Source: Candidatus Poribacteria bacterium
GTDB taxonomy: Bacteria; Abyssobacteria; SURF-5
Reading direction: 5' to 3'
Assembly: GCA_016215705.1 (NCBI GenBank)
Contig: JACRIR010000205.1
Coordinates: 1-30,913 of the forward strand
DNA length: 30,913 nucleotides
Program-made: the position numbers and the translations under genes
Part shown: piece by piece, positions 11,541-25,366 of the stretch
How the letters are laid out: every line of letters begins with the position of its first letter
Position numbering within the stretch: the first letter of the stretch is position 1
The notes under the pieces: generated by a model
The model's database searches: none
The model's input: the letters and a program-made list of their open reading frames with translations, nothing else
What the model was told of the DNA's origin: nothing

Positions 11541-11583
11541 CTCATTGCTCCTTTCATTCAAACAGTACACTAGAAACCGCCAA

Positions 11584-11712: not shown

Positions 11713-11747
11713 ATTATACCACAACAATATCTGTCTGTCAACAGACA
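11713..11747 (-). promoter_or_regulatory. Regulon promoter/operator P1 (operator on -35)
   Basis: Minus strand: TTGACA (11741-11736), a 17-bp spacer and TATAAT (11718-11713), a perfect sigma-70 consensus. The -35 hexamer lies inside the perfect inverted repeat TGTCTGTCAACAGACA (11732-11747), so a bound TetR dimer would block RNA polymerase. It faces the pseudopilin gene, with a leader of about 165 bases. Confidence 0.85.
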
Positions 11748-11812
11748 TAATTAACTTTTCAGAGATTTTCCCGCCTGTCGAGATCGCGGCAGGCGAGAAC
11801 TCTGAGGAGCTT

Positions 11813-12226
11813 TCAGGAAGTTGGTTCGATACGAACGCTCATCAATACATTGCCTAGGCCGCCTACGTCCATTCCGGGGTCGGTGCAGGTAATGCCCTCG
11901 ATGGGAGACGTGAGGTCCCGGTTGTGGCTGCAACGGTCCAGGTAGACGGAGACGCATCGCGCAAGCGGGGCGATTGCGCCCGGACACAGGGGACAATCTG
12001 TAGCTTCCTTGTCGATTTGAGATCCGACAATGACTATCTTTTGACCGATCTTCATGCCGACCGTGCAATACTTGGACTTCACGACCTCTGCGACCAGCCG
12101 GTATTTGGCCATATTCTCTATTGCGTTCTTGAATGCTTGCTCTCGCTCCGGAGAGACGCTTGCGATGTCCTCGTCTGACATTTGGAGCATGTCCTTCGCC
12201 AAAGCCGTCAACATCGGATCTTTCAT
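11813..12226 (-). CDS. Small cysteine-rich protein, TIGR04076-like
   Basis: A 137-aa soluble protein. The N-terminal third is helical ('EREQAFKNAIENMAKYRLVAEVVKSKYC'-type, residues about 28-54). The remainder carries six cysteines (C54, C78, C81, C91, C99, C114), including CPLC, and the segment 'TVGMKIGQKIVI' resembles the TIGR04076 group of small proteins of unknown function. The cysteines could bind metal or a cluster; this is inference. ATG 12226 is preceded by AAAGGAGG at seven bases. Just upstream lies a truncated duplicate of its first third (12283-12459). It is probably the last gene of the unit starting at promoter P2. Confidence 0.6.
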   Translation of the reverse strand: MKDPMLTALAKDMLQMSDEDIASVSPEREQAFKNAIENMAKYRLVAEVVKSKYCTVGMKIGQKIVIVGSQIDKEATDCPLCPGAIAPLARCVSVYLDRCSHNRDLTSPIEGITCTDPGMDVGGLGNVLMSVRIEPTS

Positions 12227-12282
12227 AGTTTTGCCTCCTTTGAGTTACCCCGGGAAAGATAAGAACCGGATTTCTGATAGGA

Positions 12283-12459
12283 TCATGTTTTCGGGTTCAC
12301 CACACTTTGCAGTGGAAGCCGGTATTTGGCCATATTCTCGACGGCGTTCTTAAACTCGCGTTCTCGGACGAGAGTTTCCTTTGTGACGTCTTTGCGGGTT
12401 GTTTGGAGCGTGTCGTTTGATAAGACCGTCAACACAGGATTTGTTGTTTCGCACTTCAT
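12283..12459 (-). CDS. Truncated duplicate of the small cysteine-rich protein (58 aa)
   Basis: A short ORF from ATG 12459 (GAGGT seven bases upstream) to TGA at 12283. Its product NPVLTVLSNDTLQ...REREFKNAVENMAKYRLP... aligns with the N-terminal third of the neighbouring 137-aa protein (MLTALAKDMLQ...REQAFKNAIENMAKYRLV...). It then diverges and stops, and none of the conserved C-terminal cysteines remain. It still has an intact start and ribosome binding site, so a peptide may be made. Most likely it is a decayed partial tandem duplication. Confidence 0.6.
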   Translation of the reverse strand: MKCETTNPVLTVLSNDTLQTTRKDVTKETLVREREFKNAVENMAKYRLPLQSVVNPKT

Positions 12460-12529
12460 TCAGGTTACCTCAACATATGGGCCAGAATCCGAAAGGCCGG
12501 TTTCTTTTTGCGTTCAGCGGAGCAATAGT

Positions 12530-13543
12530 CTAACGACTCATCCATGCGATCACTGGGAAGAAGAATCGCAAGACCGCTGCGAACACCAGTGGTTTCATCC
12601 ACAAGACTTTCTTAACCTCATCGAATTCTATGAGGGTGCCATCGGGGTCTTTGATATAAGCGAAGAAAGCATTGGTCCCTGCTCCCATATCCATATACGT
12701 CGGAGAACAGTACGCCTTTGTTTTCATGCTTCTCTCAACTTCGGCCACTGCGGCTCGAATGTCATCCACCTCAAAGCAGCACTCCATTTGTCCAATGTCT
12801 CCCCATCGGCGACCCGCGAACAACTCCTTTCCCTGATAGCCGAGCACTTGCACGAGCCGTATTACGCCGCCGTCCGACGTGACAAAGGGGCCATTAAGCC
12901 GCTCGGTTCTTTGGAGAAGCACTTGTCTTTGCGCGAAACTTCTCCCGAAAAGAGGCTGCAAGCCCGGCTCCTCCTGGACGATATCAAGAAGTGTCACATT
13001 GTAACCCAGGATATCCCGGTAGAAAGGAAGAGATTTGTCGATGTCCCGGACTCCGACCGTAACTTGCACGAGACCACTGACGTTCGGCTCCACTGGAGCC
13101 CCCGGAGAAATATCAACGAGTTCGATAAGGTTCCCGTCGGGGTCAGCCAGAAAAGCGGATTCCCATCGCTGACGGGAAGCGAGTTCGGTGACGTAAGAGC
13201 GCACTTTGGGTTTTACGCCAATTTGTTGCAGTCGGTTTATAAAGCCGGGAAGATTGTCCACCCGATATCCGGTGGCCAAAAACCCGATGTCGCCCCATCG
13301 CATTTCGAGTGGACGGGGGGATGTCGAGAGGTATTGGACAAGCTCTACCAGTCCCCTTCCACGGGCGCTGAGAGCCATGATAATGCGCATTTTCACCAGT
13401 TCTCCGATGATCGGCTCCATCTCCTTACTGGCGCCCACGTAGTCGGATATTTTGACGGGGAATCCGAGAACCTTTTTGTAGAAATCGTAGCTGGCGGCTG
13501 CGTCGGTGACTCCCAAGCCAACATGCTGTAATGAGGTGATCAC
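12530..13543 (-). CDS. Two-domain VOC (glyoxalase/dioxygenase superfamily) protein
   Basis: A 337-aa protein with two vicinal-oxygen-chelate domains: residues about 4-145 ('LQHVGLGVTDAAASYDFYKKVLGF' to 'AFLADPDGNLIELVD') and about 157-312 ('VTVGVRDIDKSLPFYRDILGY' to 'IKDPDGTLIEF'). Domain 1 keeps possible metal ligands H7, E67 and E141; in domain 2 the first His position appears replaced. The last ~20 residues (MKPLVFAAVLRFFFPVIAW) are strongly hydrophobic, unusual for VOC proteins, and suggest membrane association. The start is GTG 13543 with GGGGAGGAG just upstream. It could be an epimerase, dioxygenase or lyase; the family does not say which. It is the first intact gene after promoter P2. 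Confidence 0.8.
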   Translation of the reverse strand: MITSLQHVGLGVTDAAASYDFYKKVLGFPVKISDYVGASKEMEPIIGELVKMRIIMALSARGRGLVELVQYLSTSPRPLEMRWGDIGFLATGYRVDNLPGFINRLQQIGVKPKVRSYVTELASRQRWESAFLADPDGNLIELVDISPGAPVEPNVSGLVQVTVGVRDIDKSLPFYRDILGYNVTLLDIVQEEPGLQPLFGRSFAQRQVLLQRTERLNGPFVTSDGGVIRLVQVLGYQGKELFAGRRWGDIGQMECCFEVDDIRAAVAEVERSMKTKAYCSPTYMDMGAGTNAFFAYIKDPDGTLIEFDEVKKVLWMKPLVFAAVLRFFFPVIAWMSR

Positions 13544-13643
13544 TTTTGCTCCTCCCCTGAATCAAGCCACTTTGTTTGACTGCGCTGATAACTGTCTTTG
13601 CAGTTCGGACACATTCTCAATCTCTGTCCATAAAGAGGAAATT

Positions 13644-13829
13644 TCAAGAAATCTCCATTCTCTCCAGTTTCTTTTTAAGAATCTGAAGGAACTTGGCCGC
13701 AGGCGCTCCATCCACAGGCCTGTGATCGAAAGAGAGAGAGAAAGCTTCATGATCGGCGCGATCTCTCTTATCGTTCTTGACCACGGGTTTTTTCACGATC
13801 GAGCCGACTCTCGGGAATCCACAGTCATT
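13644..13829 (-). pseudogene. Remnant of 2-oxoacid dehydrogenase E2 acyltransferase (C-terminal end)
   Basis: Reading leftward, one frame gives 'CGFPRVGSIVKKPVVKND'. A shifted frame gives 'IREIAPIMKLSLS', and the first frame then resumes with 'FDHRPVDGAPAAKFLQ' and 'ILKKKLERMEIS' before a stop. Together these are the end of a lipoate-dependent acyltransferase catalytic domain, including the hallmark DHRxxDG motif. Two frameshifts break it: one after KND and one in a CT microsatellite (about 13729-13745). Everything upstream (lipoyl and E1/E3-binding domains) is gone. The fragment sits between promoter P2 and the VOC gene, so it was probably once the first gene of that unit. Confidence 0.75.
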
Positions 13830-13867
13830 TTAATATCTCTTCACAGCCAGACACAGCGTAGTTTCAG

Positions 13868-13936
13868 TGCGATGAATCGCGCCCCCACGGAATCATCTGA
13901 TTCATGCCCGCAGGGACGCAATTCATTGCGCCCTTG
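13868..13936. repeat. Family-2 palindromic repeat cluster
   Basis: GATGAATCGCGCC (13871-13883) is followed by GCAGGGACGCAATTCATTGC (13910 on), whose core CGCAATTCATTGCG is at 13917-13930. The same two modules recur at 26180-26276. It lies within the 5' leader of the P2 unit. Confidence 0.75.
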
Positions 13937-14005
13937 CTGGCAGAAGCGTCCTTGTGCAATTATCTTCTCATTAAGCTCAGGGTGATTCGGGATTCAGGCT
14001 CTGTA

Positions 14006-14049
14006 TGTTGGTTGACAGACATAGTATCACAAAAGGGGTTGGCTGTCAA
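14006..14049 (-). promoter_or_regulatory. Regulon promoter/operator P2 (operator on -10)
   Basis: Minus strand: TTGACA (14049-14044), a 17-bp spacer and TACTAT (14026-14021). The operator at 14006-14021 (TGTTGGTTGACAGACA on the plus strand) begins exactly at the last T of the -10 box. It faces the E2 remnant and the VOC gene; the distance to the VOC start is about 460 bases, consistent with loss of most of the first gene. Confidence 0.8.
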
Positions 14050-14132
14050 GAGCTTCTTGCGATAATCTGGGGGAGAAAATATTGCAAGGAATTCAGGCGA
14101 AGGGGGATTTCCGGAATCATTTCGACAGTTGC

Positions 14133-14609
14133 TTAGCCGGCGTTGTCCGCTTTCTTCCGGAAATCGGGAACATAGCCGGTCTTCACAAGGTTTGAATCTC
14201 CTCGGGCGACCAGGTTGCCTTGGTCGTCGAGAATCTCGCAGACCGCATGAGCGATGCGCCTGCCTGAGCGGATGAATCGCGCTCGCGCGGTGACAGTTTT
14301 GCCGACTTCTACTTTTCCAATAAAGTTCACGTGCAGATCAATGGTCAGCATGAAGCCTTCCTCGCCCAAAGTGGCCGCGGTCATCCCGATGAGGTCGTCG
14401 ATGATGGCCGCCTGAATGCCGCCGTGGAGGAGCCCGGTGGGATTTGCCATTTCAGGCCGTATCTTGAAAGTCATTTCGATTTCGCCCGGGTTGCAGGATA
14501 CGATACGTCCGTCAAGCCAATTGGTGAAAGGCGGCGCATTTTCAAGTTTCTTTCCTACGAACGCGCGGAATACCTCGACCATGGGGTTCGTGCCTGATTT
14601 GTCTTCCAT
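14133..14609 (-). CDS. PaaI-type hotdog-fold thioesterase
   Basis: A 158-aa acyl-CoA thioesterase-like protein. The hotdog signature is 'NPTGLLHGGIQAAIIDDLIG' (residues about 57-76), with H62-G63-G64 and D71/D72 as likely oxyanion and catalytic residues. The second half ('MLTIDLHVNFIGKVEVGKTVTARARFIRSGRRIAHAVCEI') is the usual beta-sheet of the PaaI/YdiI group. ATG 14609 has GAGGAG six bases upstream. It probably hydrolyses an acyl- or aryl-CoA and may relieve CoA sequestration during catabolism. It is divergent from M24 copy 2; its own promoter is not clear, but operator O3 lies in the shared gap. Confidence 0.85.
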   Translation of the reverse strand: MEDKSGTNPMVEVFRAFVGKKLENAPPFTNWLDGRIVSCNPGEIEMTFKIRPEMANPTGLLHGGIQAAIIDDLIGMTAATLGEEGFMLTIDLHVNFIGKVEVGKTVTARARFIRSGRRIAHAVCEILDDQGNLVARGDSNLVKTGYVPDFRKKADNAG

Positions 14610-14709
14610 TTCTCACTCCTCGCTAAATAGTGTCATAGTGCGCTGCCCGGTTAAGTAATTCTACGAAATGGCGCAGCCTTTGTCCAGTAGAGGGAAGTGA
14701 AACTTGCAC

Positions 14710-14753
14710 TTGACAGGCGACAAGAGTCAAGATAGAATGTCAGTTGACAGACA
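14710..14753 (+). promoter_or_regulatory. Regulon promoter/operator P3 (operator on -10)
   Basis: TTGACA (14710-14715), a 17-bp spacer and TAGAAT (14733-14738). Operator TGTCAGTTGACAGACA (14738-14753) starts at the last T of the -10 box, the same geometry as P2, P5 and P6. It drives M24 copy 2, with a leader of about 65 bases. Confidence 0.85.
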
Positions 14754-14811
14754 TAACTACTATTGCAAAAGCAAGAATCAAGGACTAGTTCTGACAAAAG
14801 GAGGCGTTCAA

Positions 14812-16065
14812 ATGGCACTCAAGAAGGCGCCAGAACCACAGGGTTATGAACTGTACGGGCCGACCCCCAAATTTCCGGATGTTCCCTATGCCGAATGGAA
14901 GGCAAGAATCGACAAGGTGAAAAAGCTGATGCGGAAGGAGGGCATCGACCTTCTCATGCTTTGGATGAAGCAGAATTGCCGATACTTCGCCTGTTTCACT
15001 TCCGGCCACTGGGAGCTCCCGAGCATCCAGCCACTTGTGGCATTGATTCCGGTAGACGGCGAGCCTGTCGCGCTTACCGGAGAGTTTTTCAGGTGGACGG
15101 TAGAGGCTCAGAGCTGGATTCGCGACATCAGAACACAGCTTGACGTTCACCAGGCCGATTCGGAGCGGGCATTTCCTAAAGACGTCGCCCAGGCCGTGAA
15201 AGACATGGGCTATGAAAAAGCGACCATCGCTCTGGAGAAAGGCCCGCTGGGACACATGTATATTCCCCGGCCGCTGAACGATATCGAGACGCTGATGAAG
15301 GCGTTGCCTCATGCAAAGTTTGTGGACGGTGACAAGGTGATCTGGGAGTGCCGTATGATCAAGTCGCCGCTCGAGATTGAAAGACTGACCAAGGCCGCCA
15401 TGATCTACAAACAGGCGCTGTCGACGGTGGTCGAGAAGTACAGGCCGGGGATGACGGAAAACGACGTAGGCAAGATATACGTCTGCGCCGCTATCGAAAA
15501 CGGAGCCGACAAGACTGGTATCGGCCATATCATGTGCGGCTCCGACCGCGAAGGGATGTGGGATACCGGTCACTATTTTGACGGATGCACGATAAACAGG
15601 GGCGATTACCTGTCGCTTGACACCCCTGTCCGGTACAAGGGATATTGGGCCGATATGGGGAGAATAATCAACGTCGGTCCCGCAACTGAGAGTTGGAAGA
15701 ACTACTGGGACGCCATCGGACGCGGGTTTGACGCGGCCGTCAAGGTGGCAAGGCCCGGTGTCAAGGCCAAGGAAGTCTGGAAAGCCGTCAATGACGCAGT
15801 CGAGGAAGGGGGACTCATGGGCTTCGAAATGTATGGCCATGGGATCGGCATAGATGTGCAAGAACCGCCTGTCCTCGGGATGACCGGTGAAGATATTCTG
15901 GAAGCGGGAATGACATTCGAGGTCGAATCGCTCGGGGGTTCGGCGCTCAGAAAATTCGGGGGCCCCGGGATATTCCAGTACGAGAACCTGGTGATCATAA
16001 CCGAAAACGGTTGCAGCCCCGTTATCGGTCTTCCTCACCATATTATCGAAACAACACACTGCTAG
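14812..16065 (+). CDS. M24 family metallopeptidase (Xaa-Pro/creatinase type), copy 2
   Basis: A 417-aa protein, the same length as the copy at 8275-9528 and highly similar along its whole length. The metal ligands are kept: Asp in 'LSLDTPVRYKGYWADMGR' (two Asp), His in 'MYGHGIGID', Glu in 'TFEVESLG' and Glu in 'FQYENLVIITE'. ATG 14812 has AAGGAGG seven bases upstream; an upstream in-frame start at 14704 would lie before the promoter and is rejected. It is controlled by operator promoter P3. The next gene (dehydrogenase-like) follows after about 117 bases containing palindrome copy 3. The substrate is likely a peptide or an amidino/imino compound. Confidence 0.9.
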   Translation: MALKKAPEPQGYELYGPTPKFPDVPYAEWKARIDKVKKLMRKEGIDLLMLWMKQNCRYFACFTSGHWELPSIQPLVALIPVDGEPVALTGEFFRWTVEAQSWIRDIRTQLDVHQADSERAFPKDVAQAVKDMGYEKATIALEKGPLGHMYIPRPLNDIETLMKALPHAKFVDGDKVIWECRMIKSPLEIERLTKAAMIYKQALSTVVEKYRPGMTENDVGKIYVCAAIENGADKTGIGHIMCGSDREGMWDTGHYFDGCTINRGDYLSLDTPVRYKGYWADMGRIINVGPATESWKNYWDAIGRGFDAAVKVARPGVKAKEVWKAVNDAVEEGGLMGFEMYGHGIGIDVQEPPVLGMTGEDILEAGMTFEVESLGGSALRKFGGPGIFQYENLVIITENGCSPVIGLPHHIIETTHC

Positions 16066-16097
16066 TTTTCAAGAAGCATCCAGGCCCGCGTGCGCGG

Positions 16098-16134
16098 AAA
16101 ACGGGGACGCGATTCAGCATCGTGTCCCCGTTTT
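16098..16134. repeat. Dispersed palindrome, copy 3
   Basis: GGGGACGCGATTCAGCATCG continuing TGTCCCC, flanked by AAAAC and GTTTT that pair. The T-run follows the stem on both strands, so this copy could end transcription in either direction. Confidence 0.85.
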
Positions 16135-16182
16135 ATTGGGCAAAATTCGCTATACCGATTTGAGCACAAAAGGGAGGGCGGC

Positions 16183-17301
16183 GTGGGCGTGGACCGGAAG
16201 AAGATCGTGGTCCTGGGCGGATGCGGACAAGCCGGAAGGGCTATCGTACGCTTGCTCCTTGAGCGCACGGATGCGTCCGTCGTTATCGCCGGACGGAGCC
16301 TTGAGAAGGCCCAAGCGCTGGCGAATGACATGCGAAGAATGCACGCGGGGGCTCAGGTCGCGGCTTCGTGCGCGGATGCGGTGAAGCCGGCCAGCCTGGG
16401 AGATGCCTTTCGGGGCGCCGACATTGTGATCGTCGCCTCAACAACCGCGAATTTCACGGCAAACGTTGTCAGGGCCTGCCTCGATGCTCGCTGCGACTAC
16501 TTCGATATCCTCGACAGCCCTGAAGTGGCGGACATTTTGAATCAGTTCGCTCAGCAGGCGAAAAAGGCCGGTAGGCTTTTCATCACTCAGGGCGGACTTG
16601 CTCCCGGTATGCCCGCCGCAATTGTTCGTCTTGCGCATGCTTCTCTTGACAATCTCCGTGGCGCGCGACTCGGGCTTGCGCTGAGCCTGAAGACAGCGGA
16701 GCGGTATGAACAGGTCTATGACGTTTTCGATTTCATCGTAAAGACCCGACCTGTCGCGTTCGAGGGAGGAGTCTGGCGGAAGAAATCGCTTGGGGATACG
16801 ACCACTATCGATTACGGAGACCGGTTCGGTTCCCGCCAATCGTTTGCCATCGACATGCCTGAGCTGCATGCTCTGCCCGAGCAGTTGGGGTTGGAGGATT
16901 TGAGCATTTATGCAGCCAGCCCTAACCAGATGGTGGACTATCTGTTGAAGAAGCTGATCATGGGCCTGCACAGAATCCGGCCGCGTTTAGGTTGGCCGAC
17001 CCTTGCCCGATTGATATTCCGGGCATCCAAACAAATGGCTCATGAGCCAAGCGGATTCAGCAACGTTCTGGAAGCATGGGGACAGCGAAATGGTGTGGAC
17101 AGGCGACTGCGAATCGTTATCGAGCACGAAGACAACTACTTCGCTACCGCCGTGACGGTGATTGCGTTCTTGCGCCAGTACTTTTCCGGCGCGTTCAAGG
17201 AAACGAAAGGTGTCAGGATGATGGGACACCTGATTGATCCGGAACGGTCACTTCACGAGATTCAGGAAATGGGTGTGACTGTGCGACGCGAGGGTTTTTG
17301 A
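16183..17301 (+). CDS. Saccharopine dehydrogenase-like NAD(P)-binding protein
   Basis: A 372-aa protein. The N-terminal Rossmann fold has 'IVVLGGCGQAGRAIVRLLLE' (GxGxxG, residues about 8-27), then 'VVIAGRSLEKAQALA', typical of saccharopine dehydrogenase/trans-acting enoyl reductase-like proteins. The mid-part 'LFITQGGLAPGMPAAIVRLA' matches the conserved GGxxPG region of the family. Start: GTG 16183 or 16189, both after GGGAGGG; an upstream ATG is possible but would run through palindrome copy 3. The enzyme would reduce or oxidise an amino-acid-derived or lipid-derived substrate; the exact reaction is unknown. It probably shares the P3 transcript with M24 copy 2. Confidence 0.78.
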   Translation: MGVDRKKIVVLGGCGQAGRAIVRLLLERTDASVVIAGRSLEKAQALANDMRRMHAGAQVAASCADAVKPASLGDAFRGADIVIVASTTANFTANVVRACLDARCDYFDILDSPEVADILNQFAQQAKKAGRLFITQGGLAPGMPAAIVRLAHASLDNLRGARLGLALSLKTAERYEQVYDVFDFIVKTRPVAFEGGVWRKKSLGDTTTIDYGDRFGSRQSFAIDMPELHALPEQLGLEDLSIYAASPNQMVDYLLKKLIMGLHRIRPRLGWPTLARLIFRASKQMAHEPSGFSNVLEAWGQRNGVDRRLRIVIEHEDNYFATAVTVIAFLRQYFSGAFKETKGVRMMGHLIDPERSLHEIQEMGVTVRREGF

Positions 17302-17543
17302 GTTTCACAGAGCGGCGAAGCCGCAACCAAAGAAAAAGAGGGATCCGCAGATTTCGCAGATTTACACAGATTCTAAGAAAAAGCAACAACAAAAAGAGAC
17401 CTCATCCACGAAGCGACACAAAGGAGCATCACCAAGAGAAGAAGAGGAAACGGGCTCACTGGTTTGAACTGATTTGCGCAGATTTTCAGAAAAAGAGAAA
17501 TCGCGACACAGATTCAAGATTTCGAAGGTGAGTAGTACAGAGT
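17302..17543. repeat. Non-coding stretch with degenerate tandem repeats
   Basis: No gene is supported. The stretch holds decaying copies of two short repeats common in environmental genomes: CGCAGATTTCGCAGATTTACA-type (about 17347-17372, again near 17470) and CCACGAAGCGACACAAAGG-type (about 17407-17425). Purine-rich sequence dominates the plus strand. Confidence 0.5.
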
Positions 17544-17640
17544 GGAAATCCGGGGACACGATGTCGCATCGTGTCCCCGGATTTCCCACCGCATCGTGTT
17601 CCCGAATTTCCCACCGCATCGTGTTCCCGAATTTCCCCTG
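17544..17640. repeat. Dispersed palindrome, copy 4, with two tandem half-units
   Basis: GGAAATCCGGGG and CCCCGGATTTCC enclose the ACACGATGTCGCATCGTGT core (17544-17586). Immediately right, the right arm is repeated twice more in tandem as CCCACCGCATCGTGTTCCCG-AATTT (period about 29 bases), to 17640. It lies at the end of the leftward FAD oxidoreductase unit. Confidence 0.85.
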
Positions 17641-17665
17641 GTTAAGCATTCAGGACCCGCTGGTT

Positions 17666-18988
17666 CTAATGGGCGACAATGCCTCCCCACCCACAAACTC
17701 TCTTAACCGCCGCAGCGGCGCTCATCATTGCCGCCTCCATGGCTTCTCCACAAAGGACACTACTGACAAAGGAAACGCCTCTCAGTTTCCTTGTTCCCTC
17801 CAGGAAATCCAGGATGCGGCCGTGTGCTCCAGGGGGATAGAGCGCATTTATGAATTTGTGCCGGTGGACCTTTGCATCTTCGATCCACTTTGAGAGACCC
17901 GGCACCATCAGTTCGATGTCTTCTTTGGCTTTTCTTAGCACTACGTCATCGGGCTTGTCCACCAGGTCCAGCGACATGGGGTGAATTCCGAATCCGACAA
18001 GGATGCTCTTCCCGCTTGGAACCGTTTCCGGCGCCTTTGAAAGTTGATCAACGGCGTATCCATACGTCTTCCTGAGCCTGGGGTCATTAAAGTAACACCA
18101 GATGTTCTTGTCCAGCGGTCTGTCAAGAAAGAAGACCGGCATAGGAGCTTGGGCGTAGGTTACCGATTCGAGAAAACGTCGTTGTTCCCCCATCTCTTCC
18201 GGCATGAGAGGAGCGGCGGCTGGAGGCGTGGTGGCGACTATGACGTGGCCGGCCTTAATGACCGAGCCGTCGTTCTCCAGTTGCACTCCGACCACGGTGC
18301 CTTTTTCGGTCACGAGTTTCCGGACAGGGCTCTCATATCGGACGCGCAAGAGCTTGGCTAACTCACGGGCAAGCGAGGCAGTGCCTCCTGTCAGGGTAAA
18401 GAAGCCGGGGAAGAGCATGGTTTGGAAATGCCTCATGAAGCAGTAGAAGCTCATCCACTCCGGAAGCCCGCAGGTGGCGCCCATGCTTAGGACAGTCAAG
18501 AAGTAATCCTTAAGCGGGCGGTCGTGTGGAGACTTGAATGCCTCGAACACCTCCATATTGTCGTAGTCGGGCATATCCTCCGAAATCACATACCTGGGAA
18601 GCCGGCGTCCGAACAGAAAATGTTTCAGCACAAATTGGTATATCCGCAGATTGCCGCGCAGGCCGAGAAGCTTCATATACGGATTGTGACGGTCATACAC
18701 GTAGAAGGAACCGTCTTCAAGCGAGTACCTCATGTTTCCGGAAACAGGTCTCTTGGTGGATTTCAGGTTTGTCGCATCTATAAGTTGGAGCGCGTTGCGG
18801 AAGTCGGAATGAAAGAATTGCGCTCCGACGTCTACCCGATCGCCCTTTCGCTCCAAAATGATGGTCCGTCCGCCCGGCCGCTCAGAGGCCTCCAGTATCT
18901 CAACTTCGTATCCCCTCTTCTGCAGCCAGTAGCCGGCCGACAACCCTCCCAAGCCCGCCCCAATGATTATGACCTTCCTGTTTTCCAT
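17666..18988 (-). CDS. FAD-dependent amine-oxidase-fold oxidoreductase, copy 1
   Basis: A 440-aa flavoprotein. The N-terminal dinucleotide-binding fold is 'VIIIGAGLGGLSAGYWLQKRG' (residues 6-26), followed by 'EILEASERPGGRT', the GG-motif of the amine oxidase/phytoene desaturase/protoporphyrinogen oxidase superfamily. The C-terminal FAD-closing segment is 'GVSFVSSVLCGEAMEAAMMSA'. ATG 18988 is chosen by analogy with the paralog, where GGAGG precedes the same codon; here the equivalent is AAGGGA, somewhat far upstream. It lies directly downstream of the paralog at 19243-20565, separated by a MITE-like element and palindrome copy 5, and is probably read through from P4. Substrate unknown. Confidence 0.85.
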   Translation of the reverse strand: MENRKVIIIGAGLGGLSAGYWLQKRGYEVEILEASERPGGRTIILERKGDRVDVGAQFFHSDFRNALQLIDATNLKSTKRPVSGNMRYSLEDGSFYVYDRHNPYMKLLGLRGNLRIYQFVLKHFLFGRRLPRYVISEDMPDYDNMEVFEAFKSPHDRPLKDYFLTVLSMGATCGLPEWMSFYCFMRHFQTMLFPGFFTLTGGTASLARELAKLLRVRYESPVRKLVTEKGTVVGVQLENDGSVIKAGHVIVATTPPAAAPLMPEEMGEQRRFLESVTYAQAPMPVFFLDRPLDKNIWCYFNDPRLRKTYGYAVDQLSKAPETVPSGKSILVGFGIHPMSLDLVDKPDDVVLRKAKEDIELMVPGLSKWIEDAKVHRHKFINALYPPGAHGRILDFLEGTRKLRGVSFVSSVLCGEAMEAAMMSAAAAVKRVCGWGGIVAH

Positions 18989-19026
18989 CGGTTCATGAGT
19001 CCCTTCTGTCGTTCCCATGTGCGCGA

Positions 19027-19065
19027 AAAACAGGGGACACGATGCGGCATCGTGTCCCCTGTTTT
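19027..19065. repeat. Dispersed palindrome, copy 5
   Basis: GGGGACACGATGC-G-GCATCGTGTCCCC with flanks AAAACA and TGTTTT. It is terminator-like on both strands and lies between the two FAD oxidoreductase genes. Confidence 0.9.
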
Positions 19066-19114
19066 CCGCACGGTATCTCCGATCTTCTGCACATAGAATT
19101 TCCGGCACACAACA

Positions 19115-19246
19115 CTAGTGTAGTGTCTCTAACGCTTCTTTACATTGATCTTCGGGGACAGTCCCGATTCTACGGCGCAAAGCGCCCGTAAATCTGGGAT
19201 GGTCCCCTTCGCAACGCTTCAAGTTATTTCTTAGACACTACACTAG
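19115..19246. mobile_element. MITE-like element 1 (CTAG ends)
   Basis: Perfect 14-bp terminal inverted repeats CTAGTGTAGTGTCT (19115-19128) and AGACACTACACTAG (19233-19246) bound a 132-bp non-coding unit. The interior folds as a long imperfect hairpin (GGGGACAGTCCC... pairing with ...GGGATGGTCCCC). The TA within each CTAG end fits the TA target duplication of IS630/Tc1-mariner elements. Its right end supplies the TAG stop codon of the upstream FAD oxidoreductase. No transposase is inside. Confidence 0.75.
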
Positions 19247-20565
19247 CTGGTAAGAACGCCTCCCCACCCGCAAACTCTTCTGACTGCTGCCGCGGCGCTC
19301 ACCATCGCTGCTTCGATGGCCTCTCCGCAGAGTACGCTGCTGACAAAAGAAACCCCTCTCAATGTCTTTGCTCCTTCCAAGAAGTCGAGCACACTGCGAT
19401 GCGCTCCTGGAGGATAGAGCGCATTTACGAACTTATGTCGATGGACCCTCGCATCCTCGATCCATTTCGATGAGCCCGGTATCATCAGCTCAATATCTTC
19501 TTTGGCCTTTTTCAACACTACATCATCAGGTTTGTCCATCAAGTCCAGTGTCAGAGGGTCAATCCCGAATCCGACCAGCACGCTCTTGCCGCTCGGGATC
19601 ATTTCCGGAGCTTTGGAAAGCTCGTCAATCGCGTATCCGTATGTTTTCCTGAGCTTGGGGTCATTGAAATAACACCAGATATTTCTGTCCAGCGGCCTGT
19701 CCAGAAAAAAGATCGGCATGGGGGATTGGACGTAGGTAACCGACTCGAGAAAACGCCGCTGCTCTTCCATCTCCTCCGGCATCATCGGCGCCGCTGCTGG
19801 AGGTGTGGTGGCGACTATCACATGGCCGGCCTTCTTGACTGAGCCATTGCTTTCCAATTGTACTCCGACAACCCGGCCCTTCTCGGTCACGAGTTTCCGA
19901 ACGGGAGTTTCGTAGCGCACCGACAGGTGTTTTGCCATCTCATACGCAAGTGAGGCAATGCCTCCCGTCAGAGTAATATAATTGGGGAAGAAGATATTGC
20001 TGAAATGCCTCATGTAGCAATAGTAGCTCATCCACTCGGGCAACCCGGAAGTGCCGCCCATGCTTATTACGGTTACGAGGAAGTCTTTCATCGGGCGGTC
20101 GTGTGGGGAAGTGAACCCATCAAACACTTCCATGCTGTCCCAGTCGGGCATGTCTTCGGAAATCAGATAGTGGGGGAGACGGCGTCCGAACAAGAGGAAT
20201 TTCAGGATAAACCGATACATCCGCAAATTGCCGCGGAAACCGAGGAGCTTATTGTACGGGTTTCGGCGGTCAAACACGAAAAACGAGCCGTCTTCGAGCG
20301 CATACCTTATATTCCCCGAAATAGTTCTCTTGGTCGAACCCAAGTTCATGGCGTCTATGAAGCCGAGGGCGTTATGGAAATTGGAATGATAGAATTGTGC
20401 CCCGATGTCCACCCGGTCACCCTTACGCTCCAAGAGAACCGTTCGTCCACCAGGTTGAGCCGAGGCCTCCAGTATTTCAACCGCGTATCCCCTTTGCCGC
20501 AGCCAGTAGCCGGCTGACAACCCTCCCAGACCCGCCCCAACGATTATAACATTCCTGCTTTCCAT
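19243..20565 (-). CDS. FAD-dependent amine-oxidase-fold oxidoreductase, copy 2
   Basis: A 440-aa paralog of the protein at 17666-18988, with roughly three quarters of residues identical by eye over the whole length. FAD-binding 'VIIVGAGLGGLSAGYWLRQRG', then 'EILEASAQPGGRT', and C-terminal 'GVSFVSSVLCGEAIEAAMVSA'. ATG 20565 has GGAGG eight bases upstream. The stop codon TAG lies inside the terminal repeat of the MITE-like element, so the last two or three residues may have been changed by its insertion. It is the first gene of the P4 unit, with a leader of about 390 bases. The product is likely a cytoplasmic or peripheral membrane flavoenzyme acting on a hydrophobic substrate; inference only. 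Confidence 0.87.
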   Translation of the reverse strand: MESRNVIIVGAGLGGLSAGYWLRQRGYAVEILEASAQPGGRTVLLERKGDRVDIGAQFYHSNFHNALGFIDAMNLGSTKRTISGNIRYALEDGSFFVFDRRNPYNKLLGFRGNLRMYRFILKFLLFGRRLPHYLISEDMPDWDSMEVFDGFTSPHDRPMKDFLVTVISMGGTSGLPEWMSYYCYMRHFSNIFFPNYITLTGGIASLAYEMAKHLSVRYETPVRKLVTEKGRVVGVQLESNGSVKKAGHVIVATTPPAAAPMMPEEMEEQRRFLESVTYVQSPMPIFFLDRPLDRNIWCYFNDPKLRKTYGYAIDELSKAPEMIPSGKSVLVGFGIDPLTLDLMDKPDDVVLKKAKEDIELMIPGSSKWIEDARVHRHKFVNALYPPGAHRSVLDFLEGAKTLRGVSFVSSVLCGEAIEAAMVSAAAAVRRVCGWGGVLTS

Positions 20566-20955
20566 CGGTTTACCCTCCAAGAATGGCACAAGAGCATTGT
20601 CAAAAGGGTTTTGTCTCCGCAATACGGCAGGGAAGTCTCATGACGGCATTGCAGGCATCCTGAATAAACGCAAAGCGCAGGAGGAATCGGTTGGGTCGAA
20701 AGGCTTTGCAAGGTTGACGTATGGACTTAATCCGGATCGATATGGCCGCTGTTCCGAATTGGGAAACGTTGTTTAATATGAGGACTGCAACGTGCCCTTC
20801 ATCTCAGCGGGGCGAGCCTCAAACCTTTTCCCCCTGCGCCTTGCGCGTGCTGGGACTTCCTTAAGATACAAAAAACAGTCCGATTCGATTGACTCTTCCG
20901 TTCTTGGCATTCCCGTTGGTTCCGGGATTTCAGGAACGCGTTGTCGAATTCGGTC
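20566..20955 (-). other. Long 5' leader of the FAD oxidoreductase unit
   Basis: About 390 bases of transcribed but non-coding sequence between P4 and ATG 20565. It contains leader motif copy B (20824-20858). No convincing small ORF with a ribosome binding site and no known riboswitch is recognised. Confidence 0.45.
20824..20858 (-). promoter_or_regulatory. Conserved leader motif, copy B
   Basis: A 35-base element matching the pseudopilin leader motif at 11584-11618 (26 of 35 identical by eye), about 105 bases downstream of the -10 box of P4. Confidence 0.5.
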
Positions 20956-20962
20956 AGCCGAT

Positions 20963-20997
20963 ATTGTACCACGCGAATATATGTTTGTCAACAAACC
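20963..20997 (-). promoter_or_regulatory. Regulon promoter/operator P4 (operator on -35)
   Basis: Minus strand: TTGACA (20991-20986), a 17-bp spacer and TACAAT (20968-20963). Operator TGTTTGTCAACAAACC (20982-20997, plus strand) contains the -35 box exactly as in P1. The spacers of P1 and P4 are also alike (ending GTGG before the -10), so the two promoters look like duplicates. Confidence 0.82.
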
Positions 20998-21063
20998 TAT
21001 ATTTGTTCTCGAAAAAGATGCGCTCTCCAGTTGCGTAGTCGATTTGCCAAATCCTATGCGTGT

Positions 21064-21098
21064 TTTGTACGGGCGACCCGGCGGGTCGCCCGTACAAA
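21064..21098. repeat. Perfect 17-bp inverted repeat
   Basis: TTTGTACGGGCGACCCG, one central G, then CGGGTCGCCCGTACAAA. It lies between the oxidoreductase operon (85 bases past its last gene) and P4. No T-run follows, so it is a REP-like element rather than a classical terminator, though it may end or stabilise the kor transcript. Confidence 0.85.
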
Positions 21099-21182
21099 GG
21101 TTGCTTGGATGATAGCACAAATAGGAGGTTGAGCGGTGGACCCGGATCGCCCCTACGGAGGTTGCGCGGATACGTCATCGGC

Positions 21183-21743
21183 TCACTTCAGACAGTTCGC
21201 GCTCCTACGCCCCTTTTTACCCTTTCCTATTTTGAATCCCGCGATGAGCGCGGCAAGGTTTGCGTTTCTTGTGTGTGCAGGGATGCGCCCGAACATTGAT
21301 TGTTTCAAGCTCTTGAGTTTCACCATACCAGTGACGCCTGCGATGATTCCAAGGGCTACCATGTTTACGCTCATGGGACTACTCACCTGATCCCGCGCGA
21401 TCTCGGTCATGGGAAAGCGATTGACATCCTCTTCCTTTCCGGGAGTGACGATGCTTGAGTCCACGATGAGCAAACCGTCCTCTTTGAGATATCGATTATT
21501 CTCATCGAATGCCCGCTGCGAAAGCGCAACGAGAACATCGAGCCGGGAACACTTAGGATAGTCGATAGGCTCGTCGCTTATGACCACGTCCGTCTTGCTC
21601 GAATCTCCGCGCGCGGCAGGCCCATAGTCTTGAGCCTGGGCGACCTCTTTGCCTTCATAAATACCAGCGGCCTCGGCAAGGATGATGCCCGCGAGGATGA
21701 TGCCCTGCCCCCCGGAACCGCACAATCTGCACTCTGTCCGCAT
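21183..21743 (-). CDS. korC: 2-oxoacid:ferredoxin oxidoreductase, gamma subunit
   Basis: A 186-aa gamma subunit. 'RLCGSGGQGIILAGIILAEAA' near the N-terminus is the CoA-binding GxGGQG signature of the KorC/VorC/PorG family. It continues with 'AQAQDYGPAARGDSSKTDVVISDEPIDYP', also diagnostic. The ATG start at 21743 lies ten bases after AGGA; GTG 21749 is the alternative. It is the last gene of the korD-A-B-C operon, 31 bases after korB. With the other subunits it oxidatively decarboxylates a 2-oxoacid to acyl-CoA, reducing ferredoxin. The gene names follow the 2-oxoglutarate enzyme; a branched-chain 2-oxoacid enzyme (Vor) cannot be excluded. Confidence 0.87.
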   Translation of the reverse strand: MRTECRLCGSGGQGIILAGIILAEAAGIYEGKEVAQAQDYGPAARGDSSKTDVVISDEPIDYPKCSRLDVLVALSQRAFDENNRYLKEDGLLIVDSSIVTPGKEEDVNRFPMTEIARDQVSSPMSVNMVALGIIAGVTGMVKLKSLKQSMFGRIPAHTRNANLAALIAGFKIGKGKKGRRSANCLK

Positions 21744-21774
21744 AGCCACTTTGTCCTATCGCCCGTTTCTTCTA

Positions 21775-22689
21775 CTACTGCTTCTTCTTTCTTATTGAGC
21801 CGGAACCTCGTGCGCTTCGCGCGGCCCCCCTTCGGCTCCGGGGCCCAGTTTCTGCACCTTCGGCCGCTTTTGCGGCCATCTTGTAATATTCGGTCACGAA
21901 TTCCGGCGCGTTGCGGTTCACGAATACTCCGGTCAAGAACTTCCCGGGGAACTGTTCCTTGAGCGAGTCGGCTTCTCCGGACCACTGTTGCCGCATTTTT
22001 TCAATCGGAAGCGCATTATCGCGCAGCCACCGCACCATCTCGACCGGTCCGCCCATCTTGTTCATGCGTCCGTAAATCGTCGGACACTGACTTATGATTT
22101 CGACAACGGAAAATCCCTTGTGCTCGAGCGCCATTTTGATGAATCTCTCGGTTTCACGCGCGGAATACGTCGTGCCGCGCGCGACAAAACTTGCGCCCGC
22201 GCTCGCGGCAAGATTACAGATGTCGAAGGAAGAGTCGATGTTCCCGTACGGAACCGTGGTCGCATACTCACCGCGCGGAGTAGTCGGCGATACCTGACCG
22301 CCGGTCATACCGTAGATGCGATTGTTGAACACGAGTGTCGTGATGTCTATGTTGCGCCTGCATGAATGGATGAAGTGATTTCCCCCTATGGCAACGGCGT
22401 CGCCGTCGCCCATTATGACGATCACGTGCAGTTTCGGGTTGACGAGCTTTATTCCGGACGCAAACGCAAGAGCTCTTCCATGAGTTGTATGAAGCGTATT
22501 GAAGTCAACGTAGACCGGGGCGCGCGCGGCGCAGCCAATTCCGGATATCAGGATGACGTCGTTCCTCGAATATCCGAGCGAGTCTATCGCTCGCACCAGC
22601 GCCGAGAGACCCACCCCATTCCCGCAGCCGGCACACCACAAATGCGGAAATTTCTTGGTCGAGCGAATATACTTGTGCATGACTGACAT
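21775..22689 (-). CDS. korB: 2-oxoacid:ferredoxin oxidoreductase, beta (TPP-binding) subunit
   Basis: A 304-aa beta subunit. Four cysteines at the positions that hold the [4Fe-4S] cluster are C19 and C22 ('HLWCAGCGNG'), C53 ('GIGCAAR') and C202 ('SQCPTIYGR'). The TPP-binding segment runs from 'MGDGDAVAIGGNH' (about residue 93) to 'LVFNN' (about 123), followed by 'YGMTGGQVSPTTP'. The last ~30 residues form an unusual Arg/Ala/Ser/Lys-rich basic tail not typical of the family. ATG 22689 lies nine bases after GAGGAGGAG. It acts with KorA at the active site and passes electrons to ferredoxin. Confidence 0.92.
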   Translation of the reverse strand: MSVMHKYIRSTKKFPHLWCAGCGNGVGLSALVRAIDSLGYSRNDVILISGIGCAARAPVYVDFNTLHTTHGRALAFASGIKLVNPKLHVIVIMGDGDAVAIGGNHFIHSCRRNIDITTLVFNNRIYGMTGGQVSPTTPRGEYATTVPYGNIDSSFDICNLAASAGASFVARGTTYSARETERFIKMALEHKGFSVVEIISQCPTIYGRMNKMGGPVEMVRWLRDNALPIEKMRQQWSGEADSLKEQFPGKFLTGVFVNRNAPEFVTEYYKMAAKAAEGAETGPRSRRGAARSARGSGSIRKKKQ

Positions 22690-22710
22690 CGCTATTCACT
22701 CCTCCTCCGC

Positions 22711-22765
22711 AAGATGATCGATCATCTTATCTTGCAGGCGCGAATTCATTCACACGAATCTCGCC
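22711..22765. repeat. Palindromes in the korA-korB gap
   Basis: A perfect 18-bp palindrome AAGATGATCGATCATCTT (22711-22728) is followed by a GGCGCGAATTC...GAATCTCGCC hairpin (22737-22765). Both lie inside the operon in a 78-base gap and could affect the stability or relative expression of the flanking mRNA. Confidence 0.6.
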
Positions 22766-22767
22766 AC

Positions 22768-23931
22768 TCATTCCTCCACACAAAGATGGTCAACTATTTC
22801 ATCCGGAGTGATAAGCTCTCCGTCGAAGCGGGTGAGCGATTGAACTCTTGTCTTTCCGGCTGCGAGCCGCTCGACCTCGAGCGCCATTTGCCCGAGGTTC
22901 AGCTCGACCACCGTGAAGCTTCTGACCGACTGTGCGTAGTGAACTATTGACCGGCGCGGGTGCGGCCATACGGTGATCTGGCGGATGAGCCCGGCCTTGA
23001 CACCCCGGCTGCGCGCGATATCCACTGCCGCCTTGCATGCGCGCGCCGCGCTGCCGATCGCGACCAGTATGCGCTCCGCGTCTTCACACATATACTCTTC
23101 GCTCAGACAGATTTCGCTTCTATTGTTCTCTATCTTGTCTCGCAGTCTCGTGAGCAGCGACTTGACTTCGTCAGGCCGCATCGTGGGGAACCCCCACTGG
23201 TCGTGCGTCAAACCTGTCACGTGGTAGCGGTATCCGCTGCCGAAGTCCGCGAGCGGCGGCACGAGGTCAGCGGTGATTTCGTAGGGCTGATATGCGTGCG
23301 CCGGGATATCGGGCCTCTTGCGCTCGATGAGTCTGACATCTGCTTTGCGCGGAAGGACGACTTTTTCCCGCATATGGCCGATGACTTCGTCGAGCAGCAG
23401 GATCACCGGCGTTCGGTACTTCTCTGAGAAATTGAATGCCTCGATCGTGACGTTCAGCGTTTCCTGCACGGACCATGGCGCAAGCGCTATTATCGGGTGA
23501 TCACCATGCGTGCCCCAGCGCGCCTGCATGATGTCGCCCTGCCCGACCGACGTGGGCAGCCCGGTGCTTGGGCCTCCTCTCATTACGTCGACCACGACGC
23601 ACGGTATCTCGGTAAACGAGGCAAAGCCAAGATTCTCCTGTTTCAAGGAGAACCCGGGACCCGAGGTCGCGGTCATTGCTTTCGCGCCTGCAAGAGAGGC
23701 GCCTATAACCGCGCCCATGCTTGCGATCTCATCTTCCATTTGAACAAACACGCCCCCTCGGCGCGGCAGTTCGCGCGCCATCATCTCCGCGATCTCGGTC
23801 GAGGGTGTTATGGGGTAGCCGGCGAAAAAGGACATTCCCGCCAACAATGCGCCATGCACACATGCCTCATTGCCTTGAAGGAGCCTGACATCACTGTTGG
23901 TCTTGTCGACAGTTTTATTTTTTTTTGTCAT
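22768..23931 (-). CDS. korA: 2-oxoacid:ferredoxin oxidoreductase, alpha subunit
   Basis: A 387-aa alpha subunit. 'GNEACVHGALLAGMSFFAGYPITPSTEIAE' (residues about 20-49, given in part) is the pyrimidine-domain signature with YPITPS, followed by 'FVQMEDEIASMGAVIGASLAGAKAMTATSGPG'. The middle region 'PSTGLPTSVGQGDIMQARWG' is diagnostic of the KorA/VorA group. Start ATG 23931 has AAGG upstream. It lies 32 bases after korD and 78 before korB. The complex acts in the cytoplasm and needs TPP, CoA and ferredoxin. It would convert a 2-oxoacid made by deamination into an acyl-CoA, which fits the amino-acid-like enzymes of the same regulon. Confidence 0.92.
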   Translation of the reverse strand: MTKKNKTVDKTNSDVRLLQGNEACVHGALLAGMSFFAGYPITPSTEIAEMMARELPRRGGVFVQMEDEIASMGAVIGASLAGAKAMTATSGPGFSLKQENLGFASFTEIPCVVVDVMRGGPSTGLPTSVGQGDIMQARWGTHGDHPIIALAPWSVQETLNVTIEAFNFSEKYRTPVILLLDEVIGHMREKVVLPRKADVRLIERKRPDIPAHAYQPYEITADLVPPLADFGSGYRYHVTGLTHDQWGFPTMRPDEVKSLLTRLRDKIENNRSEICLSEEYMCEDAERILVAIGSAARACKAAVDIARSRGVKAGLIRQITVWPHPRRSIVHYAQSVRSFTVVELNLGQMALEVERLAAGKTRVQSLTRFDGELITPDEIVDHLCVEE

Positions 23932-23963
23932 CGTCAGCCTTAGTTCTCGACGCTTTGCACCCT

Positions 23964-24212
23964 TTATTCTTCCAGTATATACTCCTCGATCAATTTCCGC
24001 CTGGTATCCTCATCATCTACAATAGCATAATCCGGGCACTGAATCACGCACAGGCCGCAACGGACACAACGGTCCAGATTCGTGGGGTGAGGATAGCGGT
24101 TCTTATCGAGCTCAAAGACCTGCCTGGGACACAATTCTTCACACAGTCCGCACTGCTTACACCACTTCCTGTTCACCCAGATGAACGGTTTGTCTTTTTC
24201 TTCTTTCCTCAT
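23964..24212 (-). CDS. korD: 2-oxoacid:ferredoxin oxidoreductase, delta (2[4Fe-4S] ferredoxin) subunit
   Basis: An 82-aa ferredoxin-like subunit with two cluster motifs, CKQCGLCEELCP (about residues 18-29) and CVRCGLCVIQCP (about 49-60), the classical CX2CX2CX3CP pattern. ATG 24212 has AAGG seven bases upstream. It is the first gene of the operon, with a leader of about 50 bases from promoter P5. It transfers electrons from the beta-subunit cluster to soluble ferredoxin. Confidence 0.9.
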   Translation of the reverse strand: MRKEEKDKPFIWVNRKWCKQCGLCEELCPRQVFELDKNRYPHPTNLDRCVRCGLCVIQCPDYAIVDDEDTRRKLIEEYILEE

Positions 24213-24255
24213 ATATATACCTTATATCAATCGGAAATCCATTGGCAATATGTTA

Positions 24256-24299
24256 TGTTTGTTGACAGACATTGTATCGCATGCTTCTTCAGGTGTCAA
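24256..24299 (-). promoter_or_regulatory. Regulon promoter/operator P5 (operator on -10), kor operon
   Basis: Minus strand: TTGACA (24299-24294), a 17-bp spacer and TACAAT (24276-24271). Operator TGTTTGTTGACAGACA (24256-24271, plus strand) starts, read leftward, at the last T of the -10 box. It is divergent from P6, so one intergenic region holds two separate operators. Confidence 0.87.
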
Positions 24300-24356
24300 C
24301 TGCTCTCGGCCACAACAAATCTACCGCGCTGTGCTACTTTCGTACGAGCATGACAC

Positions 24357-24400
24357 TTGACAACCTCCAGATAGGGAGATACAATGTCAGTCAACCAACA
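24357..24400 (+). promoter_or_regulatory. Regulon promoter/operator P6 (operator on -10), tetR2
   Basis: TTGACA (24357-24362), a 17-bp spacer and TACAAT (24380-24385). Operator TGTCAGTCAACCAACA (24385-24400) begins at the last T of the -10 box. It drives tetR2, so TetR2 is probably autorepressed. Confidence 0.85.
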
Positions 24401-24424
24401 TAGTTTCAAATAGGAGAAAAGGTG

Positions 24425-25078
24425 ATGACAAGAAGAAAAGTGGCCGAAGAGAGACGCAAGGAAATAATTGCTGGCCTTTATGCGTGCTTGGCAACGAAAG
24501 GATACCAGGAGGTTACCATCAAGGATATTGCCAAGGCGGCGAACGTGAGTTATGGAGCGCTGCATTACTTTTTTGAAAGCAAGAAAGACATCGTGTTTGC
24601 GTTTGTGGAGGATTTTATCCGGGAGGAGGAAATCAGGTTTCAGAACAAGTTGGCTCCGGTTGAATCCGCGTGGGAACGCTTGGAAACGATGGTAGCCGTT
24701 CTTGCGGAAGAGATGATTCTCAACAGAACTACGAACAAGGTATTCCTGAACCTGCATCATATGGGATGCTGCGACGAGGATATTCGACGGTGCATGGTCC
24801 ATTGCCATTGTGAATATAGAAAAGTGATACAAGACGCCGTCGATTACGGGATTTCCCGAGGGGAGTTTCCGAGCACCGACTCGGAAAGATTGGCGTTTCT
24901 TCTCGTCGGAATCGTCGAGGGAGTATCTCTCCAATTGTCTATAGACCCCGATCTTTACGACGACAAAAGCGTCAAGATGTATCTCTTTGAGGCTGCACAA
25001 CGACTTCTCGTAAGCGAAAATACTGTGAAGAGCCTGTCTGAACGACGGCTGCAACATTGCACAGGGAAAGGAGGCTGA
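24425..25078 (+). CDS. TetR family regulator 2, likely repressor of the local regulon
   Basis: A 217-aa TetR repressor. The HTH region 'VTIKDIAKAANVSYGALHYF' and 'FESKKDIVFAFVEDF' is nearly identical to TetR1, while the ligand domain has diverged but still aligns ('NKVFLNLHHMGCCDEDIRRCM'). ATG 24425 has AGGAG eight bases upstream; GTG 24422 is the alternative. Several Cys and His residues cluster in 'HHMGCCDEDIRRCMVHCHCEY' (partly shared with TetR1 as 'MASNDEDIRRCM'), which might influence effector or redox sensing; inference. Its promoter P6 carries the regulon operator and the kor operon diverges from it, the usual layout for a repressor next to its target. Confidence 0.9.
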   Translation: MTRRKVAEERRKEIIAGLYACLATKGYQEVTIKDIAKAANVSYGALHYFFESKKDIVFAFVEDFIREEEIRFQNKLAPVESAWERLETMVAVLAEEMILNRTTNKVFLNLHHMGCCDEDIRRCMVHCHCEYRKVIQDAVDYGISRGEFPSTDSERLAFLLVGIVEGVSLQLSIDPDLYDDKSVKMYLFEAAQRLLVSENTVKSLSERRLQHCTGKGG

Positions 25079-25081
25079 TAG

Positions 25082-25366
25082 ACGGGAGCCAGGGACGTTC
25101 TTGAAGACGCGGGACTCATGGCTTTCGAGATGTACGGACACGGTATCGGCCTGGATATCCACGAACCGCCGGTTCTCGGGATGACCGAGGAAACGATCCT
25201 CGAGGCGGGGATGACATTCGAGGTGGAAGCCCTTGGGCTTCCCGGTTTGAGGAAACTTGGTGGCGAAGGCGCATATCAGTTCGAGAATCTCCTCATTATT
25301 ACCGAGGACGGCTGCAGCACCGTTATGGGGCTCCCTCATAGTATTTTTGAGACATCATATAGCTGA
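25082..25366 (+). pseudogene. C-terminal fragment of an M24 metallopeptidase, copy 3
   Basis: Directly after the tetR2 stop (TGA then TAG) an open frame gives 'GARDVLEDAGLMAFEMYGHG', continuing 'IGLDIHEPPVLGMTEETILEAG', and ends with 'HSIFETSYS'. This aligns with the last ~90 residues of the two full M24 copies. It keeps the metal-binding His and both Glu residues but lacks the N-terminal domain and both metal-binding Asp residues, so it cannot be an active peptidase. An internal ATG at 25118 could start an 82-aa product, but no ribosome binding site is seen. The tetR-M24 order matches that of tetR1 and M24 copy 1, so the pair was probably duplicated and this copy was later deleted internally. 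Confidence 0.85.

Follow-up and report, generated by a model that had tools for sequence, protein, structure and literature searches.

Predicted operators and their promoters in the window

Do the repeated palindromes in a 30,913-nucleotide contig of Candidatus Poribacteria bacterium mark the operators of a single TetR-family repressor, and, if they do, which of the 2 TetR proteins encoded there binds them? The contig (C136; the window, hereafter) belongs to a 5.47-Mb draft genome that is 92% complete, and our genome statistics come from pattern searches. The first-pass annotation had listed six 16-bp sites here, and all of them are found where it placed them. In a pattern search of the window, the consensus TGTYDGTYRACHRACA, which reads the same on both strands, matched exactly at 11732, 14006, 14738, 24256, and 24385, and with one mismatch, at the last base, at 20982 (P4). 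At 2 or fewer mismatches, the only further match in the window is at 8718, inside a gene. Shuffling gives an expectation of 0.48 matches, and 7 were reached in 0 of 100 shuffles.

All 6 sites also carry the near-consensus promoter claimed for them: the -35 box is TTGACA without mismatch, the spacer is 17 bp long, and the -10 box is 0 to 2 mismatches from consensus. When the flanks were shuffled around a fixed operator, a promoter (2 or fewer mismatches, 17-bp spacer) arose in 6.7% of cases. The operator is found on 5 of the 7 window promoters that have at most 1 mismatch and a 17-bp spacer. The sites fall exactly into 2 registers. In the -10 class, the first operator base is the end of the -10 box: P2 (operator TGTCTGTCAACCAACA, 14006..14021, minus strand; -35 14049-14044, -10 TACTAT 14026-14021), P3 (TGTCAGTTGACAGACA, 14738..14753, plus; -35 14710-14715, -10 TAGAAT 14733-14738), P5 (TGTCTGTCAACAAACA, 24256..24271, minus; -35 24299-24294, -10 TACAAT 24276-24271), and P6 (TGTCAGTCAACCAACA, 24385..24400, plus; -35 24357-24362, -10 TACAAT 24380-24385), the last being divergent from P5. 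In the -35 class, operator base 7 is the start of the -35 box and base 35 the end of the -10 box: P1 (TGTCTGTTGACAGACA, 11732..11747, minus; -35 TTGACA 11741-11736 inside the operator, -10 TATAAT 11718-11713) and P4 (GGTTTGTTGACAAACA, with its one mismatch, 20982..20997, minus; -35 20991-20986 inside, -10 TACAAT 20968-20963). The repeated register described earlier is therefore exact at all 6 sites. A TTGACA lies within the operator core GTTGACA, and the "same offset" seen for P1 and P4, like that of the 2 sites outside the window described below, is in part a consequence of this. What is not automatic in the -35 class is the 17-bp spacer, the TATAAT or TACAAT box, and the common TGG preceding that box.

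Of additional note, the leaders of P2 and P4 are about 400 nt or longer, one with a gene remnant within it, and the P1 leader folds no better than expected (z 0.54). On the minus strand, the leaders of P1 (11588-11604) and P4 (20828-20844) have in common the element GCAAGGCGC(G/A)GGGGGAA; apart from these two, only 1 exact copy is present genome-wide, on C145 (3 in all).

Distribution in the genome

At 1 or fewer mismatches, the pattern occurs at 9 places in the 5.47 Mb: the 6 of the window, 2 new operator-promoters, and 1 genic match. The outcome that would have counted against the annotation, matches equally common inside genes, is thus not seen: 8 of the 9 tight matches lie on promoters. 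The new sites, at C54:33542 (L054:8543; P7) and C228:43494 (L055:7495; P8), both have a perfect TTGACA-17-TATAAT promoter in the register of P1 and P4. P7 is upstream of a DAO-type FAD oxidoreductase gene (PF01266); P8, convergent with selB, has no evident gene behind it, only a 12-bp hairpin. Consequently, the 6 promoters of the annotated regulon all stand, and the set grows to at least 8. Of the 8 promoter sites, 6 fall within the same 31 kb of a 5.47-Mb genome, for which the binomial probability is 9e-13. At 2 or fewer mismatches, the pattern is no commoner genome-wide than its reversed control (86 versus 90), and therefore only the tight matrix is informative. Relaxing the operator centre to TGTYDGNNNNCHRACA gave no excess over control, with the sole exception of the SURF_5 tetR site discussed below.

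The predicted transcript at C228 (L055:7495-7600) is about 60 nt long and closes with a G+C hairpin of 12 bp (z -5.4) that lacks a T run; it is possibly a small RNA or a relic. Searches for tRNAs and known RNA families found none behind P8 and none in the window. On C54, a half-operator, GCCGACAGACATAA, lies at L054:8597-8615, about 20 nt past the -10 box of P7, and is perhaps a weak second site. A candidate at C84:15235 was ruled out as an operator site, as it lies inside an ORF.

TetR2 as the candidate regulator

The best regulator candidate is TetR2, a TetR-family protein of 217 aa (24425..25078, plus strand; ATG at 24425, alternative GTG at 24422). Its N-terminal TetR_N helix-turn-helix domain is recognized by PF00440 (E 8.4e-12, 45.1 bits against a cut-off of 24). 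The AlphaFold2 model (mean pLDDT 85.3) has an all-helical TetR fold in which helices 2-3 form the helix-turn-helix, and its PDB matches are FadR, TtgR, and EilR, with a TM of about 0.7. The paralogue TetR1 (9714..10328, minus strand) is 47% identical to TetR2.

The annotation had left the choice between the 2 proteins open, and comparison of 3 Abyssubacteria genomes, namely the source genome, SURF_5 (G001), and SURF_17 (G002), favors TetR2. P6, the predicted autoregulatory site, places the palindrome on the promoter of tetR2 itself. The closest SURF_5 homolog of TetR2 (47%) groups with TetR2 as its sister in the tree, to the exclusion of TetR1 (support 88/86), and its gene keeps a counterpart of that site: TTGACA-17-TATAAT is followed by TGTTGGGCGTCCAACA in a register identical to that of P6. 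The arms of this palindrome are TGTTGG...CCAACA, and TGTTGG is a half-site of the window operators too; its 4-bp centre is GCGT, unlike the window sites. Two more tetR promoters (L101, L097) have ACGG(G/T)CGTCCAAACA past the -10 box, resembling the SURF_5 operator centre GGGCGTCCAA.

It is also conceivable that TetR1 acts as the physiological repressor, either by itself or jointly with TetR2, with operators common to both paralogues and perhaps a different ligand for each. The recognition helices are nearly identical (VSYGVMHYYF in TetR1, VSYGALHYFF in TetR2), and TetR1 adjoins the M24 gene M24a, which is the ancestral tetR-M24 order. Yet a search of the TetR1 promoter for the palindrome found none, M24a has no operator upstream, and the SURF_5 protein with the conserved site pairs with TetR2, not TetR1. 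We thus consider this explanation unlikely; with so similar a recognition helix, TetR1 may still bind the sites as a second protein. Most likely, to judge from these comparisons, TetR2 is the repressor at the predicted operators.

The promoter-plus-palindrome layout in relatives

The fixed geometry emphasized in the annotation is real as far as the registers go, but the layout is common for tetR genes of the phylum and not unique to this regulon. We sampled 40 further TetR-family genes from the 3 genomes, accepting promoters that lie within 260 bp, have 2 or fewer mismatches, and are spaced by 16-18 bp. A TTGACA/TATAAT promoter was present in 29 of the 40, nearly always with a 17-bp spacer, compared with about 8% expected from how often such promoters occur in the window; a good palindrome past the -10 box was found in 12 of 21 testable cases, against 4% in shuffles. 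Therefore, a consensus promoter with a downstream operator appears to be the usual form of tetR autoregulation in the phylum. What is special here is a single operator common to 8 promoters, plus a second position on the -35 box. Repeated Abyssubacteria cassettes of TetR with flavin amine oxidase (and DAO) genes (L087-L091) each have their own operator right after the TTGACA-17 promoter; their layouts are alike and their palindromes differ.

A second TetR clade (C257, SURF_5 C9, and SURF_17 C16; 34-38% identity) has AGTYDGTYRACHRACT just past the -10 box in all 3 genomes. This pattern has 4 occurrences in their 15 Mb: 3 on tetR genes and 1 upstream of a quinohemoprotein amine dehydrogenase subunit gene. 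The clades differ both in the recognition helix (VSYGALHY versus LHYGVIHY) and in the outer operator base (T versus A), a parallel that hints at a recognition code. The sequence AGTTAGTTGACTGACT is found at L077:3933 (C123) and L053:7667 (C257), upstream of tetR-aminotransferase genes and of a quinohemoprotein amine dehydrogenase alpha subunit gene; this pair of sites would constitute a second small TetR regulon. Further afield, related palindromes lie just 5' of tetR homologs in Desulfatibacillum alkenivorans and in a Desulfatibacillaceae MAG, where DAO/amidase or aminotransferase genes come next, and Desulfosudis has 2 sites between tetR and an alanine dehydrogenase gene.

Predicted targets and probable origin of the regulon

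The SURF_5 promoter heads an operon, tetR-M24-FAD-small ORF (G001:C144), whose families are those behind P6, P3, P4, and P2 in the window, where they are duplicated and scattered. P3 is followed by the creatinase/prolidase-like hydrolase gene M24b (14812..16065, plus; 76% to the SURF_5 copy) and a gene for a saccharopine-dehydrogenase-like NAD(P) protein (16090..17301, plus). Downstream of P4 are the flavin amine oxidoreductase gene FAD1 (19243..20622, minus; 61% to the SURF_5 copy) and FAD2 (17666..19108, minus; 78% to FAD1). P2 reads through an E2 C-terminal remnant into a gene for a tandem VOC/glyoxalase-fold protein (12530..13543, minus) and a 137-aa ORF (11813..12226, minus) that is 64% identical to the last gene of the SURF_5 operon. 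With M24b at P3, FAD1 and FAD2 at P4, the 137-aa ORF at P2, and tetR2 at P6, every ancestral gene therefore has an operator copy; the TetR1-M24a pair is without one. A C-terminal M24 fragment (25082..25366, plus) lies directly 3' of tetR2 and is, to all appearances, a relic of the tetR-M24 operon order. Gene relics are abundant in the window: besides the E2 and M24 remnants, a degraded second copy of the 137-aa ORF lies at 12300-12460 beside the intact one.

P5 drives the ferredoxin-korA-korB-korG operon for a 2-oxoacid:ferredoxin oxidoreductase (21183..24212, minus), in which KorA, the alpha subunit, scores 570 bits with NF006412 (cut-off 411) and the beta, gamma, and ferredoxin genes were recognized by Pfam and tblastn; P1 points toward a DUF1559 pseudopilin gene (10635..11570, minus). 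Judging by the comparison with SURF_5, these 2 units, the VOC gene, the saccharopine-dehydrogenase-like gene, and the C54 DAO gene would be newcomers to the regulon. In SURF_5 and SURF_17, the orthologous operons (alpha subunit 80-83%) lie at other loci, following the 3' end of an apparent Crp/Fnr-type gene, and a search for the operator there found none; the rewiring of the oxidoreductase seems lineage-specific. The closest relatives of the C54 DAO (60-63%) adjoin tetR genes in all 3 genomes, so that its capture by the operator is coherent, and DAO and FAD enzymes appear to recur under TetR control. Overall, the regulon looks recently expanded from a single operon.

Proposed mechanism

From what the DNA shows directly, namely the sites with their promoters and registers, their rarity in the genome, the conserved autoregulatory site of the TetR2 ortholog and relatives, and the gene content, we infer binding, repression, a ligand, and a pathway as follows. 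The sites would be TetR2 operators of an amine/keto-acid catabolic regulon derived from a scattered ancestral operon, with steric repression and release by a ligand; we give this reading a probability of roughly 0.85. TetR2 seems to control its own gene along with at least 6 transcription units for amine/keto-acid breakdown through these sites, which occupy two fixed positions on strong promoters. A TetR2 dimer would bind the 18-bp palindrome ATGTYDGTYRACHRACAT. On the tetR2, kor, M24b, and VOC promoters, the operator would span roughly -7 to +9, from the last part of the -10 box across the transcription start; on those of the FAD genes, the pseudopilin gene, the DAO gene of C54, and the C228 unit, it would lie over the -35 box, formed there by the TTGACA of the operator itself. 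Sigma-70 RNA polymerase would be excluded sterically in either case. A small ligand, probably an amine, amide, amino-acid derivative, or 2-oxoacid intermediate, would then release TetR2, and induction would bring about hydrolysis by M24, oxidation of amines by the flavoenzymes FAD1/2 and DAO, and decarboxylation of keto acids by the ferredoxin-linked KOR, leading into central metabolism. The amine theme recurs in the relatives, with aminotransferases, an amidase, alanine dehydrogenase, and quinohemoprotein amine dehydrogenase. As to history, an autoregulated tetR-M24-FAD-small ORF operon, intact in SURF_5, may have been duplicated and scattered, the operator following each piece, and the regulon may have captured the kor operon. 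Several points count against this model: P8 has no evident gene, the P1 pseudopilin is off the pathway theme, P2 and P4 have long leaders, the SURF_5 operator centre differs, and the TetR1 helix is almost that of TetR2.

We tentatively suggest, as a possible though doubtful extension of the TetR2 model, that the operator is a portable module. Its dyad centre would provide the -35 box, and placing it 17 bp before a TATAAT would create a repressible promoter in one step. The module could then have spread from one operon to 8 units, including the kor operon, here the sole close ortholog of the central 2-oxoacid:ferredoxin oxidoreductase, and the C228 unit, whose sole product would be a hairpin RNA. 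Paralogous TetR-oxidase cassettes of these genomes would meanwhile have diverged to other operators of unchanged layout.

The 2 discrete operator positions, with 4 promoters each, could alternatively reflect a dual factor that represses at -10-class sites and activates at -35-class sites. However, the operator covers the -35 hexamer itself, and the -35-class promoters need no activator since they are at consensus or one mismatch off, with a TGn extension; we regard a dual factor as very improbable. Least probable of all is that the sites are a copied promoter element, a dispersed repeat with incidental symmetry and no dedicated regulator: the 4 -35-class promoters are also alike in their spacers (GTGG before the -10 box) and P1 and P4 have the leader element in common, but the likeness stops within about 40 bp, half-sites vary while dyad symmetry is kept, -10-class spacers are unrelated at the same operator register, and homologous tetR genes of other genera have symmetric sites of other sequence in the same place.

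Comparison with known systems

The genome description of the phylum (PMC6121073) does not discuss regulation, and a targeted, incomplete literature search found no earlier inferred regulon, so that this appears to be the first for this uncultured subsurface phylum. It would bring an uncharacterized group of hydrolases and flavin oxidases under a single inducer, and the paralogues allow the study of joint changes in recognition helix and operator. A close counterpart is the SURF_5 operon, which has an orthologous regulator, the same promoter and operator register, and the same gene families. SURF_5 has one operon with one site, whereas the source genome has scattered duplicates of the genes, to which kor, VOC, DAO, and pseudopilin units have been added; the pair thus offers a clean before/after view of a local repressor becoming a multi-operon regulator.

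Autoregulated multi-promoter catabolic regulons are known for FadR/BetI-type repressors. Bacillus FadR and BetI share the TetR fold and are the closest NCBIfam/PDB resemblance of TetR2, but TetR2 is far below the curated family cut-offs (FadR, 51.0 versus 200 bits; BetI, 54.7 versus 201.3 bits) and its predicted targets are not fatty-acid or choline genes. In Caenibius tardaugens, the palindromic operator of EdcR lies across the -10 box of several catabolic promoters, with a weaker version at the promoter of the repressor itself (PMC8700777). EdcR is likewise a local, TetR-family catabolic repressor with operators over -10 boxes and on its own gene (PMC8700777); the operator sequence, phylum, and pathway differ, and half of the operators here overlap the -35 box, with TTGACA built in. 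Because operators over the -10 box at catabolic promoters and the repressor gene are known from EdcR (PMC8700777), the regulon predicted here is of a known type: new and well supported by sequence comparison, it would be an ordinary kind of TetR control circuit.
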